From positions 1-64,000 of the forward strand of contig JAITML010000076.1 in NCBI GenBank assembly GCA_031277395.1: DNA of 64,000 bases, in the 5' to 3' direction. Below the pieces are notes generated by a model. The model made no database searches, was not told the DNA's origin, and saw only the letters and a program-made list of their open reading frames with translations. The position numbers were made by a program, and so were the translations under genes. Origin of the DNA: Methylobacillus sp. (GTDB lineage Bacteria; Pseudomonadota; Gammaproteobacteria; Burkholderiales; Methylophilaceae). This document shows positions 8,154 to 15,305 of this stretch, one piece after another; within the stretch, counting starts at the first letter, position 1, and each line of letters opens with the position of its first letter.

Positions 8154-8510
8154 TTACAGCGGTTTGCGTTGCCCGACAAAGAAACCGAGGGCGCCGTGCG
8201 GAGTGCTGAAGATGATGTGATCGCCATCAGCGAAATAGAGCGCGTCACCGGCCTTGGCAACAAACTTCTTGCCGGTTTTGACTTCGGTCAGGTGAAATTC
8301 GCCTTCAACGACGAGCTTCATTTCTTCATAATCATAGGTGTAGTCCAGAGGATTGCCTGCATCCAGACGGAAAAAGCCCGCGCACAGCGGCTGATTTTTG
8401 TTGGCCGCGCTGGCAAGTTCGGATACAAAAACGTCGCCCAGAAATGCGCCCACACCGGGGATATTCAGGTTTGGCGGATCCTCGTGACGTGCTTGATGTT
8501 TGACTTTCAT
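8154..8510 (-). CDS. Cupin-domain protein, EutQ-like
   Basis: A 118-residue protein with one small beta-barrel cupin. The block DYTYDYEEMKLVVEGEFHLT (about 55-74) and AKAGDALYFADGDHIIFSTP (about 84-103) match cupin motifs 1 and 2, of the EutQ/DUF861 type; the usual metal-binding His residues are largely replaced by Glu, Tyr and Asp, so metal binding is uncertain. It stands alone, with its own terminator, and is divergent from the Fae-homologue gene at 8700. The shared upstream region could link their expression. Substrate unknown. Confidence 0.7.
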   Translation of the reverse strand: MKVKHQARHEDPPNLNIPGVGAFLGDVFVSELASAANKNQPLCAGFFRLDAGNPLDYTYDYEEMKLVVEGEFHLTEVKTGKKFVAKAGDALYFADGDHIIFSTPHGALGFFVGQRKPL

Positions 8511-8699: not shown

Positions 8700-9248
8700 A
8701 TGAGCGACAAAATTTATATGCGCGTGGGTGAAGCCCTGGTTGCAGGCGGCCCGCCCGGAACGGCTGCAGAACCGGAAGTAGCCATCGGCGACATGAGCGG
8801 CCCCATGGGCACGGCATTTGCCACGCTGCTCGGCGATCAGGTCAAAGGACATACGCGCGTGCTGGCGATCATGAATACCGATGTGATGGTACGCCCGGCG
8901 ACCATCATGGTCAGCAAAGTGACCGTGAACGACAGCCGCTATACCAATATCCTCATGGGTACGGTGCAGGCCGCGATTGCCAACGGCGTGCTCGACGCGG
9001 TGCGTAACGGCGACATTCCCAAGGAAAAAGCCAATGACCTCGGCATCATCGTATCGGTCTGGCTCAACCCCATCGTCGTGGATCAGAAGGATCTGGATCA
9101 CAAGATACTGTTCAACATCCACCGCGAAGCCACCGCCAAAGCCATCGCCAAAGCCATGCGCAACGAGCCGAGCATTGATTGGCTGCTTGAGAATCAGGAA
9201 AAGACGGTGCACAAGTACTATCAGATGGGGTTGGATGGCAAGCTTTAA
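8700..9248 (+). CDS. Formaldehyde-activating enzyme (Fae) homologue
   Basis: True Fae condenses formaldehyde with tetrahydromethanopterin. This 182-residue product matches the family along its length: VGEALVAGGPPG at the start, GTAFATLLGDQVKGHTRVLA, TIMVSKVTVNDSRYTNILMG, and IPKEKANDLGIIVSVWLNP. In the first block, however, the position that I align with the catalytic His17 of Methylorubrum Fae holds Glu (AAEPEVAIGD instead of AHIDLIIG), so the classical reaction is in doubt; divergent Fae paralogues are known and mostly uncharacterised. Its stop overlaps the start of the N-formylglutamate amidohydrolase gene (TAATG), implying coupled translation. I leave the symbol blank because of the missing residue. 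Confidence 0.85.
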   Translation: MSDKIYMRVGEALVAGGPPGTAAEPEVAIGDMSGPMGTAFATLLGDQVKGHTRVLAIMNTDVMVRPATIMVSKVTVNDSRYTNILMGTVQAAIANGVLDAVRNGDIPKEKANDLGIIVSVWLNPIVVDQKDLDHKILFNIHREATAKAIAKAMRNEPSIDWLLENQEKTVHKYYQMGLDGKL

Positions 9249-10078
9249 TGCTGACCCGCCCACCTACTTTCCATCTACGGCGGGGCAATGCCCCGCTGCT
9301 CATCTCCATCCCGCACGGCGGAACGCTGGTGCCGGAATGGTTGCGTGCGCGCTTGTCGCCGGAAGCGGCCAGCCTGCCCGACACGGATTGGTGTCTCGAT
9401 CAGCTCTATGATTTTGCGCATGAACTGGATGCCACTCTTATCGCGGCGACCTACACGCGCTATGTGGTTGATCTCAATCGCCCGCCCGACAACGCCAGCC
9501 TCTACCCCGGCCAGCACACCACCGGGCTGTGTCCCACCGAAACCTTCGACGGCCATCCGCTCTATGCCGACGGCAACGCGCCGCGCCCGGAAGATATGGC
9601 TGACCTCATGGCCGAATACTGGCATCCCTATCACCGCGCGCTGGGTGACGAACTGGAGCGCCTCAAATCCGCACATGGTCGCGTCGCACTGTGGGACGCG
9701 CACTCCATCCGCTCCCGGCTCCCCCGCCTGTTCGACGGAGAATTGCCCTGCTTCAACATCGGTACCGCCAACCACGCCACCTGCCCCCCGGAAATTACCG
9801 ACTCCATCGTCAAACGCGCGGAGCAAAGCGGCTATTCCTGGATACTCAACGGTCGTTTTAAAGGCGGCTACATCACACGCCACTACGGCAACCCCGCCGC
9901 AGGCATTTTCGCCATCCAGATGGAAATCGCCCAACGCGCCTACATGCGCGAATCTTCAAATCCGGCACAATACGATGGCGAAATAGCTGCACATTTGCGC
10001 GAACATTTGCGCGTTATGCTGGAAGATTTGATCATTCAGGTTGGGGCATTCGGTGCGCGCGGCGCGAAAACACCCTGA
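9248..10078 (+). CDS. hutG: N-formylglutamate amidohydrolase
   Basis: The 276-residue product resembles the HutG/FGase family, zinc enzymes that split N-formylglutamate to glutamate and formate. Family marks are LLISIPHGGTLVPEWLRARL (metal His in IPHGG), TRYVVDLNRPPDN and VALWDAHSIRSRLPRLFDGE. The frame starts with the ATG that overlaps the fae-like stop by one base. No other histidine-degradation gene lies nearby, so it is unlikely to be part of a hut pathway here; its partner suggests one-carbon chemistry releasing formate instead. That link is inference. Confidence 0.85.
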   Translation: MLTRPPTFHLRRGNAPLLISIPHGGTLVPEWLRARLSPEAASLPDTDWCLDQLYDFAHELDATLIAATYTRYVVDLNRPPDNASLYPGQHTTGLCPTETFDGHPLYADGNAPRPEDMADLMAEYWHPYHRALGDELERLKSAHGRVALWDAHSIRSRLPRLFDGELPCFNIGTANHATCPPEITDSIVKRAEQSGYSWILNGRFKGGYITRHYGNPAAGIFAIQMEIAQRAYMRESSNPAQYDGEIAAHLREHLRVMLEDLIIQVGAFGARGAKTP

Positions 10079-10190
10079 CCCTGACTGACTAACTTCATTA
10101 ATCACACTCCAACTGCCGTTTATCATTTTTAGAGCGCCATCTATCGTCTAATGGATGCAAGTCTGCCTAGGCTGCGACATCATTAACGGG

Positions 10191-10802
10191 ATGAGCTATA
10201 TATCCACCATAGTCTGGCAACGTCCATTTTCGACAACCCGCGGCTTTACCATGATCGAGCTGATGGTCGCGCTCGTAATACTGGTTGTTCTTGCGGCGAT
10301 TGCCATCCCGGCATTTGGCAACTTTGTCAAAAATACGCGGATTTATACTGTCTCCAGTGAAATCCAGACGACGTTGAGTTACACGCGCTCCGAGGCGATC
10401 ACGCGGCGGGTTCCAGTGAGCGTGTGCCCCAGCATAGATGAAACCAGTTGCAGCAGTAAATGGGAAAATCTAGGCGGTCATACGGGCGCAAATGTGGGAT
10501 TGCTGGTATTCATCGACAGCGGCACTGCCGGAACACGAGATGGCGCGGATCAAGTTCTGAAATATATACAGATTACCGACCCGAATCTGGAAATTACTGC
10601 CTCAAACGATTTTTCAAGCAGCGATCCCGTCAAGGCTTATGTGCAGTACAAGTCCTCCGGTCAGTCCGACCTTGCCTTCACAAGCACTCTGCTGATTTGC
10701 GATGATCGTAAAGAGAGCTACCGGAGCGGTGACTACGGACGCTTGATCACAGCCTACATGACTGGCCGTACCGAGATTCTCGCCGACCAGCATTGCAGCT
10801 AA
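10191..10802 (+). CDS. fimT: Type IV pilus minor pilin, FimT/FimU (GspH) family
   Basis: A 203-residue prepilin (start MSYISTIV chosen at 10191; an in-frame ATG at 10155 would add 12 residues with no better ribosome site). The prepilin peptidase site is RGFTMIELMVALVILVVLAA, cleavage after Gly, with Glu at +5. Downstream is the GspH/FimT head with TSLS-like QTTLSYTRSEAITRRVPVSV. It opens the order fimT-pilV-pilW-pilX-pilY1-(small)-pilE, the same as in Pseudomonas aeruginosa, where these proteins prime pilus assembly. PilV follows after a short gap. Confidence 0.88.
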   Translation: MSYISTIVWQRPFSTTRGFTMIELMVALVILVVLAAIAIPAFGNFVKNTRIYTVSSEIQTTLSYTRSEAITRRVPVSVCPSIDETSCSSKWENLGGHTGANVGLLVFIDSGTAGTRDGADQVLKYIQITDPNLEITASNDFSSSDPVKAYVQYKSSGQSDLAFTSTLLICDDRKESYRSGDYGRLITAYMTGRTEILADQHCS

Positions 10803-10819
10803 TTACCATGAGGACATCC

Positions 10820-11305
10820 ATGAAACCTGCGATTCAGTTTTCCGCCAACCGCCGCCGAGTGCATGGTCTGACACTCATTGAAGTGCTGGTCACCATCGCC
10901 ATTGTGGCGTTCGGTTTGCTGGGTCTGGCCGGGCTGCTCGCCAAAAGTACCGTTATGGCTGGAACTTTATACATGCGAAGCACCGTCACCGAACGAATTT
11001 ACTCCTTTGCTGATCGCATGCGTTTGAATATGAAAGGCGTAAACGCCGGGGACTACAATAATCTGACGGCTCCTCCTGACCCGGCTCCTGACTGCCGAGG
11101 CCTCCCCTCCCCTTGTAATATCGCGCTAATGGACTACATCCAGTGGTCGCAGGAGCTGAAACAATCATTGCCCGGCGGCAAAGGCACCATCATCAAAACG
11201 GCTTCGACCAGCCCCGATGTATACACCATCACCGTCACCTGGATCAACCCGAGACTACCAGAGGGGCAGCAAGATCAACAGTACAAGCTCGACACAAAAC
11301 CATGA
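10820..11305 (+). CDS. pilV: Type IV pilus minor pilin PilV
   Basis: 161 residues. Of three possible starts (TTG 10793, ATG 10808, ATG 10820) the last has GAGG seven bases upstream. The leader ends RVHGLTLIEVLVTIAIVAFG with cleavage after Gly and Glu at +5, followed by the GLLGLAGLLA segment typical of PilV. It would form part of the minor-pilin tip complex. The stop codon overlaps the pilW start (ATGA at 11302-11305). Confidence 0.87.
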   Translation: MKPAIQFSANRRRVHGLTLIEVLVTIAIVAFGLLGLAGLLAKSTVMAGTLYMRSTVTERIYSFADRMRLNMKGVNAGDYNNLTAPPDPAPDCRGLPSPCNIALMDYIQWSQELKQSLPGGKGTIIKTASTSPDVYTITVTWINPRLPEGQQDQQYKLDTKP

Positions 11306-12396
11306 AAAAAAATATCCACAAAAAAAACAGACGACAATTCGGCGTGACACTCATCGAATTGATGGTCTCGGTCGCTATCAGCCTGTTTTTGATCGCCGTA
11401 ATCGGCGGTGCCTATATCACCGCCAGGAACGTCTTCGCCTCCACTGCCGCCGCGAGCGGCATGGACGAAAATGTTCGCGTCGCCTTCAGCATGATAGGTA
11501 CTAGCATACGTCAAGCCAGCTTCAATGGTTGCGCCGGCGTGACCGGCACGGTTAAAGGTGACACGCGCGGCGCGAACTATTACGGCAGCAATTGGTATCA
11601 GGACTTTACCAAACCGGTGCAAAGCAACAGTGCACCCGGCCTCAACAATCTTCCCACAGGGAAGATTGGAGACATGTTGACACTTATCGGCGTTGATCCC
11701 ACGCGCGAAGCCAGCGTGGTTAGCGACGAGGACGGCATCATCCAAACCGGCACTCATGATTTCAATGAGGGAGACGTTCTGCTGGCAATGACAACAGATT
11801 GCAGCCTGAACAGTTATTTCGTCATGACGAACGACGGCTCCAACACTACCATCCCTCATAAATCTTCCGGCACCAACGACTCGCATAATTGCAACGCTGA
11901 TCTAGGCATTAATTGTGCCGAAGGAGGGTCATCAACACCCTACGGTCATTTAGCGCGCGGCGCGCTGATTTTACCCGTGGTAGCCAATGCTTATTTCATC
12001 GCCGACTCGGCATCAGCTAATAAGGGTAAGTCACTGTGGCGGCGTACTTACGGCGTGAAAGGAAACAGCGGGAAGGCAGTATGGTCAGGCGATGGGCAAG
12101 ATGAGGAATTGATCAACGGTGTGGAAAATATGGCGCTCGAATTTGGGATTGACTCCGATGGTGATCGTTCGATTGACGGTTATGCAACGCTTGGTGATGT
12201 GACCGACTGGAATAAGGTTTTGGCCGTACGTATTCACCTGCTGATTGCCACTTTGCCTGATGCAGGAACGCGCTCCATTAGATCGACTAATTACAGACCC
12301 ATTGACCCCGATCACCCGATATTCACGCCGCCCACCGATAACCGTATTTATCGCGAATACACTTCTATTTTTGCGCTACGCAACCGAATCTTGTGA
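11302..12396 (+). CDS. pilW: Type IV pilus minor pilin PilW
   Basis: 364 residues starting MKKNIHKKNRRQFGVTLIEL: a very basic leader, cleavage after Gly in QFGVTLIELMVSVAISLFLI, Glu at +5. The open frame extends back to 11143 but that part is pilV in another frame. The large head (about 330 residues), with MDENVRVAFSMIGTSIRQAS after the helix, is usual for PilW. It overlaps pilV by four bases and pilX by four, so the minor pilins are likely translated in step. Confidence 0.87.
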   Translation: MKKNIHKKNRRQFGVTLIELMVSVAISLFLIAVIGGAYITARNVFASTAAASGMDENVRVAFSMIGTSIRQASFNGCAGVTGTVKGDTRGANYYGSNWYQDFTKPVQSNSAPGLNNLPTGKIGDMLTLIGVDPTREASVVSDEDGIIQTGTHDFNEGDVLLAMTTDCSLNSYFVMTNDGSNTTIPHKSSGTNDSHNCNADLGINCAEGGSSTPYGHLARGALILPVVANAYFIADSASANKGKSLWRRTYGVKGNSGKAVWSGDGQDEELINGVENMALEFGIDSDGDRSIDGYATLGDVTDWNKVLAVRIHLLIATLPDAGTRSIRSTNYRPIDPDHPIFTPPTDNRIYREYTSIFALRNRIL

Positions 12397-13040
12397 AATT
12401 GCACATAAACATGAACACGCTTATTGTTTCACAACGCTATCGTCACACCGGCTTTTCGCTGCTCACTGCGATGGTTTTTTTGATCATGCTTACCCTGCTG
12501 GCAGTGGTGGCGATCCGGAGCACCATCACTCAGGAACGTATGATAAGCAATACGCAGGACTGGAATCTCGCCTTCCAATCTGCCGAGGCCGCGCTGCGTG
12601 ATGCCCAGGCGGAGATTATCGCGGGAACGCGCACTGGTGTTGATGACGTCAATTTTACTAACGACTGCAAAGGCAGCAGCGGCGTCCTTCCCACCTCTGC
12701 CGGGCTGTGCCGACCCAGCGAGAGCGGCACCCCTGTTTGGAAAGATGCTGCGCCTGCCAATGACCCCTGGTGGGGGGCGAGCGGAGCATCAGCCGTGAGT
12801 ACACAATACGGAGCTGTCACCGGTACCCAGCCCATGGTTGGCGTAATACGCCAGCCGCGCTACATGATCGAATACTTGGGGGACATGGGCAACAGCAGTC
12901 TGGTGATGTCCCAAGGGTATACAGCCCCCTTACCCACCCATCAAGGTTATCGCATCACTGCGGTCGGATTCGGGAAAATTCTCAACGATAATGACGCGCC
13001 TGCATCACGGGTCATGCTGCAAAGCGTGTTTGAGCGCTGA
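12393..13040 (+). CDS. pilX: Type IV pilus assembly protein PilX
   Basis: 215 residues from a GTG at 12393 that overlaps the pilW stop; ATG 12411 is an alternative. The N-terminal region HTGFSLLTAMVFLIMLTLLA lacks Glu at +5, as is common for PilX/GspK-type tip pilins, followed by RSTITQERMISNTQDWNLAF and AEAALRDAQ, which are strong PilX marks. It ends three bases before the pilY1 start. Confidence 0.85.
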   Translation: MKLHINMNTLIVSQRYRHTGFSLLTAMVFLIMLTLLAVVAIRSTITQERMISNTQDWNLAFQSAEAALRDAQAEIIAGTRTGVDDVNFTNDCKGSSGVLPTSAGLCRPSESGTPVWKDAAPANDPWWGASGASAVSTQYGAVTGTQPMVGVIRQPRYMIEYLGDMGNSSLVMSQGYTAPLPTHQGYRITAVGFGKILNDNDAPASRVMLQSVFER

Positions 13041-13043
13041 TCC

Positions 13044-15305
13044 ATGCCGACCAATCTTGACTGCATGCTGAAATTATTAAGGAGGCTCAAAATACGCTCG
13101 AAGCCCAAATTACTGCTCAAGCGTTTCCTCTGCACTGCGCTGATTTTCGCACTAGCCTTTCAAGGCATGACCTCGTTGATTGCGCAAGCGGTCACCCTGA
13201 CCCAGCGGAATCTCACACAAGCGCCATTGTCCACAGCCATTAACACCAATGTGTTAATGGTGATGAATGTTCCCAACAGTATGGATCAGACGCCCAGTGG
13301 CGATCCCTCGTGGTCGGGCAACTCCGACAATAAAGCACATATTGCACGCTCACCCGTGAAAAATATGATCACCAATTATGGCAGTCAGGGTTTGCTGGCA
13401 TTCACGTTTGCAGACGCTACAACCGGCAAGCTGGCGAATACCCCTCAATGGGATGCAGCCAGCAAGATTCCTGCCTATCCGAGCCGCAAGCTGGCGACCT
13501 ACGAGCCGAATAAAAAGACAGGAGTGGCCTGGGCCTGGAGCAATATTCAGGGAACAGATGGATTGGGTGAGGCGTTGCAGAAGGATACCAATGCTGCGGA
13601 AGCGCAAAAACTGCTCAACTACCTCGCCGGTGATGCCAGCAACGAAGGCACGACCAGCGGAACATACCGGCCCCGGGCAAAAAAACTGGCCGATATTGTC
13701 AACTCAGCGCCGGTTTATGTGGGCCAGCCGAAATCGGGATACAAAAACGCAATAGAGCCTACATGCAATCTTGCAACCGCGCCGACAGCCTGTTACAGCA
13801 ATTTCGTCAGCACAAATAGCAGCCGCACAGGCATGGTGTATGTGGGCGCCAATGATGGCTTCCTGCACGCCTTTGATGCCAGCTCGGGTATCGAGCAGTG
13901 GGCCTATATGCCATCGGCATTGTTCCCGGCGATCAAGCAACTGACCGCCCAGAACTACACCCACCATTTCTATGTCGATGGCAACCCGGTTCCGGCGGAT
14001 GCGTTTATCAAAACGCCCAACGACAGCACCACAAAATGGCGTACTGTTCTGGTCGGCGGCTTGAATGCAGGCGGAAAAGGCATCTACGCACTGGACGTAA
14101 ATTCACCGACCGGCGCTGCTGAGTCGCACGTAATGTGGGAATTCGGCAACCATCAAACCGGTAACAGTGCTGAAAACACGCTCACTCAGAATTACGATCA
14201 GGACATGGGCTACAGTTTCAGCCAGCCTTCCGTCGTCAAAACCGCGAACGGCAAATGGGTGGCCATTTTCGGCAATGGCTACAACAATACCGACAACAGC
14301 GATGGGCACGCCAGCACCTCGGGGAATGCGGTGTTGTATGTCGTCGATCTCGAAACCGGGGTATTGATGGCCAAGCTGGATACCGGGGTTGGCTACGCTG
14401 CGGATCCCGCAGGCAAACCGAATGGCCTTTCTACTCCTGCCGTGGTGGATATGAACAGGGATAATATTGCTGACTATGTCTATGCAGGCGACTTGCAGGG
14501 CAATATGTGGCGATTTGATCTGACTGATACAAACGCGAGCAATTGGAAGGTTGCTTATGGTTGCGGAGCTGCCAATGATGAATCCGCGCCCGCTGGTTGC
14601 GGTAACACTACAGCCAATCCGGCGGCTCAGCCGACAAACACACCCAAACCACTGTTTACCGCCAAGACCGAGAGCGGAGGCATGCAGTCCATTACGACGA
14701 TGCCGCAGGTGGGCCGTCACCCGAGTGGAAATGGATATCTCGTCTTTTTCGGCACCGGCAAGTATTTTGAAACGGGCGACAACATATTGAATACCACCAG
14801 AAACAGTTTCTACGGTGTTTGGGACAAGGGAATCGCCATAGCCAATGGACGCAACGATCTGCAAAAGCAGGAGGTGACCGATGTCCACACCGCCGGAACT
14901 CCCCCGGATACTTTCCGTTATATTTCTTCCAACACGGTAACCAGTACCTCCTATGGCTGGTATCTGGATCTGCCTGAAGATTATGAGCGGCTTGTCACCA
15001 ATCCGGTGCTGGATGATACACGTATCATGTTCTCAACCTGGGTTCCCGCAGGTGACTGCGAAAACGGCGGCACGGGCTGGTTCATGGCGTTGAATATGGC
15101 AACCGGATCTTACGGCGGAGCCTTCATCAAAGACACCACCGCAGGCGGCATGCAGATAATGCAAGGCATGCCTTCCTCGCCTACCATCCTGCGTGGTGGG
15201 TACAAGGATACAGCCGTCATAGGAGCCGGCGGCCAAATTGTCGCCGTCGATTTGACTAAGGGCGGAGGCAATCGCCGGATTTCGTGGCGCGATTTGATGA
15301 TGTAA
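13044..15305 (+). CDS. pilY1: Type IV pilus tip protein PilY1, short form
   Basis: 753 residues, against about 1000-1300 for most PilY1 proteins. After a basic leader and hydrophobic segment (to about residue 50) comes TAINTNVLMVMNVPNSMDQT, which resembles the first strand of the usual von Willebrand-A-like part (NVLLLLDNSGSM) but lacks the DxSxS metal site; the rest of that domain is mostly missing. The C-terminal beta-propeller is intact: GMVYVGANDGFLHAFDA, and the calcium loop DMNRDNIADYVYAGDLQGN (about 469-487). PilY1 sits at the pilus tip and controls extension, adhesion and calcium-dependent retraction. Followed by a small secreted protein gene and pilE. Confidence 0.9.
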   Translation: MPTNLDCMLKLLRRLKIRSKPKLLLKRFLCTALIFALAFQGMTSLIAQAVTLTQRNLTQAPLSTAINTNVLMVMNVPNSMDQTPSGDPSWSGNSDNKAHIARSPVKNMITNYGSQGLLAFTFADATTGKLANTPQWDAASKIPAYPSRKLATYEPNKKTGVAWAWSNIQGTDGLGEALQKDTNAAEAQKLLNYLAGDASNEGTTSGTYRPRAKKLADIVNSAPVYVGQPKSGYKNAIEPTCNLATAPTACYSNFVSTNSSRTGMVYVGANDGFLHAFDASSGIEQWAYMPSALFPAIKQLTAQNYTHHFYVDGNPVPADAFIKTPNDSTTKWRTVLVGGLNAGGKGIYALDVNSPTGAAESHVMWEFGNHQTGNSAENTLTQNYDQDMGYSFSQPSVVKTANGKWVAIFGNGYNNTDNSDGHASTSGNAVLYVVDLETGVLMAKLDTGVGYAADPAGKPNGLSTPAVVDMNRDNIADYVYAGDLQGNMWRFDLTDTNASNWKVAYGCGAANDESAPAGCGNTTANPAAQPTNTPKPLFTAKTESGGMQSITTMPQVGRHPSGNGYLVFFGTGKYFETGDNILNTTRNSFYGVWDKGIAIANGRNDLQKQEVTDVHTAGTPPDTFRYISSNTVTSTSYGWYLDLPEDYERLVTNPVLDDTRIMFSTWVPAGDCENGGTGWFMALNMATGSYGGAFIKDTTAGGMQIMQGMPSSPTILRGGYKDTAVIGAGGQIVAVDLTKGGGNRRISWRDLMM

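Follow-up and report, generated by a model that had tools for sequence, protein, structure and literature searches.

Fae paralogues and the N-methylglutamate pathway

In the N-methylglutamate pathway, glutamate serves as a carrier, to which methylamine is joined by GmaS and MgsABC. The resulting N-methylglutamate is oxidized to an iminium by the MgdABCD complex, which has flavin and folate-binding domains, and the C1 unit is then passed to H4F or lost as formaldehyde. How this C1 unit is released and oxidized is posed as an open question in published work on Methyloversatilis universalis (PMC5023235). In that organism, Fae3 was up 11.7-fold on methylamine versus methanol and was put forward in that study as a candidate mover of C1 units from the N-methylglutamate pathway; deletion of fae3 left growth on methylamine unaffected (PMC5023235). 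A fae3 from Methylotuvimicrobium (M. alcaliphilum), which is of the same class by name only, fails to complement a delta-fae strain and does not relieve its methanol sensitivity (PMC11748545). In methylotrophs, the paralogues Fae2 and Fae3 are orphans: the literature examined reports no growth phenotype for deletion strains and assigns neither protein a function.

Here we describe a fae3 gene that is coupled to hutG, a pairing that is absent from the published Fae3 accounts examined. Our survey of the open literature, with most subscription journals outside it, found formylglutamate mentioned together with neither Fae nor N-methylglutamate. The families and the pathway are already known, and it is their association that is new.

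The fae3-hutG locus

The pair lies in a window of 64,000 nucleotides, the whole stretch of DNA analyzed, from a Methylobacillus sp. (GCA_031277395.1, contig JAITML010000076.1, here C66). A sequence-only reading had described a Fae homologue coupled through a TAATG overlap to an N-formylglutamate amidohydrolase, and both reading frames and the junction are as described, by profile searches and by the sequence itself (Table 1). The full junction reads TTTAATG, with the last A of the fae3 TAA doubling as the first base of the hutG ATG. Equal production of the two proteins, which that reading expected from the overlap, is not general: relatives have gaps of 33-41 bp, a HutD-like gene between the two, or convergent genes.

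Table 1. Features of the fae3-hutG locus in the window
Feature	Position	Strand	Evidence
EutQ-like small cupin gene, 118 aa, divergent from fae3	8154..8510	-	PF06249 EutQ 35.5 bits
fae3 (Fae-fold protein, Fae3 class, 182 aa)	8700..9248	+	PF08714 198.9 bits, E 6e-59
Glu24 codon, replaces catalytic His of Fae	8769..8771	+	phmmer and MAFFT alignments
TAATG, overlap of fae3 stop and hutG start	9246..9250	+	Sequence
hutG (N-formylglutamate deformylase/amidohydrolase family, 276 aa)	9248..10078	+	TIGR02017 357.3 bits, cut-off 278.75; PF05013 252 bits

Directly 3' of hutG, on the same strand, is a run of genes resembling type IV pilus minor pilins (10155-15305). Some of these are GspH/FimT-like by Pfam; the remainder, up to a PilY1-like protein at the end, were recognized by eye only.

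The missing catalytic His is a class property

The product of fae3 scores 130.5 bits against TIGR03126 (cut-off 118). Its best PDB match is 1y5y, the canonical Fae of Methylorubrum/Methylobacterium extorquens, and its AlphaFold model (pLDDT 88.9) has the same fold as 1y60 in Foldseek (TM 0.84/0.90). Lys73, Gln90, and Asp99 are conserved with the M. extorquens enzyme, and Lys73 and Gln90 are also common to the window protein and canonical Fae in a MAFFT alignment. Relative to canonical Fae, however, the window protein has insertions around residues 125-138, a longer C-terminus, and a Glu in place of the catalytic His. This His, part of the AHID motif and presumably the His17 of the literature numbering, is absent although both the family profile and the fold identify the protein as a Fae. 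The sequence-only reading had placed Glu at this position by eye, and the alignment was right: Glu24 lies opposite the His both in phmmer against 1y5y and in MAFFT with the canonical Fae of the same genome, and no His was found there.

What the same reading treated as a peculiarity of this gene marks the whole of an already named class, Fae3, described from Methyloversatilis, Methylophilaceae, and methanotrophs. Among the best 80 homologues in our genome collection (78-90% identity), Glu24, Pro25, and Glu26 are present in 80 of 80, and 90 of the 182 positions show little or no variation. These homologues come from Beta- and Gammaproteobacteria, with a few bins labelled otherwise, and include that of M. 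universalis EHg5 (L109), to which the window protein is 80% identical and with which it shares the class residues, Glu24 included. Since every one of the 80 has Glu24, a loss specific to this gene is ruled out and, as judged from the alignment, the missing His is a property of the Fae3 class under strong constraint and not decay. Identity to the Fae3 of other Methylophilaceae is 77-90%; within its own genome, the window protein is 43% identical to a Fae2-like copy and 29-32% identical to the canonical copies.

Fae copies in the genome and across genomes

The window genome (G000; 2.14 Mb, 99.99% complete) encodes four Fae homologues. Two canonical copies, in tandem on C28, carry the His, and the same contig has methenyl-H4MPT cyclohydrolase (mch). 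The sequence-only reading had remarked that no H4MPT-pathway or histidine-degradation gene lies in the window; we saw nothing against this, but the remark misleads as far as H4MPT is concerned because the genome has mch and both canonical Fae genes on another contig. A further copy, on C80, has Met at the position of the catalytic His, and its class is widely distributed, as reported for Fae2 (PMC4109929): almost every one of the terrestrial Methylophilaceae sampled has a copy of the Fae2-like class. The Fae3 class is in 66 of 187 Methylophilaceae genomes, a patchy spread like that reported (PMC4109929), and fae3 is widespread without hutG.

The tandem canonical genes (L001:771-2025, C28) encode proteins of 179 aa and, with an N-terminal extension, 213 aa, and adjoin HisA-like (hutD-unrelated) and truncated-globin-like genes, named by eye. 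Many bins from marine Gammaproteobacteria, and others that carry the label Legionellales or Rickettsiales, also encode Fae3 proteins of about 80% identity (L056-L114, e.g., L062, L075, L093, and L112). In these bins the gene is solitary, and no common neighbors of fae3 were found in Gammaproteobacteria.

Conservation of the fae3-hutG pair

Our search of the 187 Methylophilaceae genomes for HutG found 21 intact copies and one fragment. All 21 genomes with an intact hutG have fae3, and in 20 of them the two genes are adjacent, with a gap of 2-879 bp; in the remaining genome they are on different contigs. The pair is therefore conserved and not a random juxtaposition. Among its carriers is a cultured relative, Novimethylophilus kurashikiensis (L035). 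The genes are codirectional, with fae3 first, in g1, g18, g14, and g20, and convergent in genus g7. In three genomes of the codirectional set a HutD-like gene lies between them; we found no paper in the open literature on what HutD binds and thus put no weight on it. Close homologues of the EutQ-like cupin (>50% identity) are found in 27 of the 187 genomes, including all 21 with an intact hutG, and the gene is adjacent in g1 and in many, not all, g7 genomes.

The single fragment, interrupted by an internal stop, neighbors an mgd cluster in a genome that has no fae3 (G032:C10:45664-46020; L170, G032:C10:38000-52000). In this one genome, G032, hutG has decayed where fae3 is missing.

HutG has two origins and no histidine pathway

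The HutG of the window keeps all of the approximately 47 positions that are invariant in an alignment of the 21 HutGs, including H23, D75, N77, R78, H129, H152, K205, and E226. Like the HutG of histidine utilization, with which it shares a family (TIGR02017) and the family-invariant residues, it scores above the equivalog cut-off, as does a g7 copy (336 bits, cut-off 279). Unlike that enzyme, it has no histidine pathway around it: urocanase was found neither in the window genome nor in any of the 187 Methylophilaceae genomes, and the neighbors are fae3 and, in relatives, mgd. In contrast to 0/187 here, urocanase is present in 24 of 34 hutG genomes of other families of the order. The urocanase result rules out histidine degradation as the role of these genes. 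Of the outside relatives, those closest to the g7 HutGs adjoin the formiminoglutamate deiminase gene hutF of the histidine pathway, so the ancestral job of HutG was probably in that pathway, with the gene later re-used. This is a warning for annotation: genes named hutG in methylotrophs need not serve histidine degradation.

In a tree of 50 HutG sequences, the Methylophilaceae HutGs form two separate clades, one codirectional with fae3 and the other convergent. A single clade, and with it a single origin, is rejected (p-AU 0.0017). The window HutG is divergent: its end branch is 1.01, and none of the HutGs sampled exceeds 56% identity to it. By this tree, hutG was acquired next to fae3 twice, from separate lineages. 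A functional link is better supported by two acquisitions that both came to lie next to fae3 than it would be by a single inherited operon and, together with the adjacency in 20 of 21 genomes, the two acquisitions rule out chance neighbors.

The pair tracks the N-methylglutamate pathway

The mgd clusters were identified by their SoxB-, SoxD-, SoxA-like, and GCV_T subunits and by type III glutamine synthetase, GATase, GlxC-like, and FMN glutamate-synthase-like genes. N-methylglutamate clusters (gmaS, mgsABC, and mgdABCD) are complete in the window genome, where mgdA, B, C, and D are with gmaS and the mgs genes on C78, and likewise in relatives; the clusters also include an XRE-cupin regulator and a GNAT. 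In g7, g14, and g20, the neighbors of fae3-hutG are mgdA (SoxB-like), mgdB (SoxD), mgdC (SoxA-like), mgdD, and type III glutamine synthetase; mgs genes come next. In 17 genomes mgdB is 1.6-2.8 kb from hutG. In the window genome itself the pair is on C66 and not adjacent to mgd, and in a second genome of the same genus (G001) mgd is 54 kb from the pair. Three genomes (G008, G028, and G090) have fae3 without hutG 1.4-3.1 kb from mgdB.

The association also holds by presence and absence. The gene mgdB is in 22 of 22 hutG genomes, compared to 55 of 187 overall (Fisher 6e-14), and among genomes with fae3 it is in 21 of 21 with hutG versus 17 of 45 without (Fisher 3e-7); both values ignore the relatedness of the genomes and so overstate the independent evidence. 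Evidence for the link that is more independent comes from the two acquisitions and from the occurrence in five genera. However, hutG is missing from 33 of the 55 genomes with SoxD and is therefore not essential.

Proposed role and alternatives

We consider it very probable that the fae3-hutG pair is tied to the N-methylglutamate pathway. Our preferred reading, which we hold to be probable though well short of secure, is that the pair is an accessory module of methylamine oxidation via N-methylglutamate, with HutG freeing glutamate and formate from N-formylglutamate. It is most likely that N-formylglutamate would arise by over-oxidation of some of the carbinolamine/iminium or of a formaldehyde-glutamate adduct; as a dead end, it would tie up the glutamate carrier until HutG split it. 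The family and the residues kept make this chemistry somewhat the likelier one for HutG here, and where its substrate would arise in the pathway we infer from the gene neighborhood. The role of Fae3 is more tentative: with its Fae fold, conserved Lys and Gln, and, in place of the His, Glu as an altered acid/base residue, it might handle formaldehyde or iminium units, most likely by binding them near MgdABCD or by speeding their exchange, and the loading of H4MPT would fall to this genome's canonical Fae copies. The value of this reading is that, with a conserved partner whose chemistry and pathway are both defined, it turns the function of Fae3 into a precise hypothesis and says which metabolite to seek. 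The pair also bears on the question of how the N-methylglutamate C1 unit is released and oxidized (PMC5023235).

The sequence-only reading had suggested a small disposal route for formaldehyde or formyl groups that ends in formate. Formate as the end product is plausible, but the context is the N-methylglutamate route and not generic disposal; the mgd genes, being on another contig (C78), could not inform that reading. A generic version, in which Fae3 takes formaldehyde from any source and HutG clears N-formyl amino acids made under formaldehyde stress, is unlikely. It would fit the retention of the Fae fold and the conserved Lys and Gln in Fae3, and fae3 is common in H4MPT-pathway genomes, with mch in 23 of 26 fae3 genomes tested and not found in 3. 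However, hutG is confined to genomes with mgd, usually beside it, and is in none of the 28 fae3 methylotroph genomes without mgd. The failure of M. alcaliphilum fae3 to relieve delta-fae methanol sensitivity (PMC11748545) also argues against it.

Less likely still is that N-formylglutamate is a true intermediate, such that N-methylglutamate is oxidized on the glutamate carrier, HutG releases the formate, and Fae3 steers the iminium. If true, methylamine carbon would reach formate without free formaldehyde or a pterin. About equally doubtful is a different substrate for HutG, i.e., another formyl or amide compound, such as formyl gamma-glutamylmethylamide or a glutamate-tailed carrier. The divergence of the window copy is consistent with this, since a changed setting may bring a changed substrate, but the equivalog scores of both the window and g7 copies, the family-invariant residues, and the HutD-like gene, otherwise of histidine-utilization operons, that accompanies hutG in some genomes all point to N-formylglutamate. 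Finally, hutG is patchy and acquired, and with the hutF-adjoining relatives of the g7 copies this could suggest a scavenger of external N-formylglutamate that by chance shares a variable island with fae3 and mgd, but such a lack of any functional tie is the least probable reading given two origins and two orientations beside the same neighbor and the persistence of fae3 with hutG where mgd has moved away (G000 and G001).

N-methylglutamate loci in other taxa

Among hutG genomes of other families, SoxD is in 6 of 34 and in none of them near hutG, so no hutG-mgd link was seen outside the Methylophilaceae. The N-methylglutamate clusters of Paraburkholderia and Acidithiobacillus have purU, which encodes a formyl-H4F deformylase, directly upstream of mgdA (L208:11068-11931 and L209:11129-11989; Paraburkholderia and Acidithiobacillus caldus plasmids), whereas the Methylophilaceae described here have fae3 and hutG near mgd instead. 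A formate-releasing hydrolase thus recurs in such loci.
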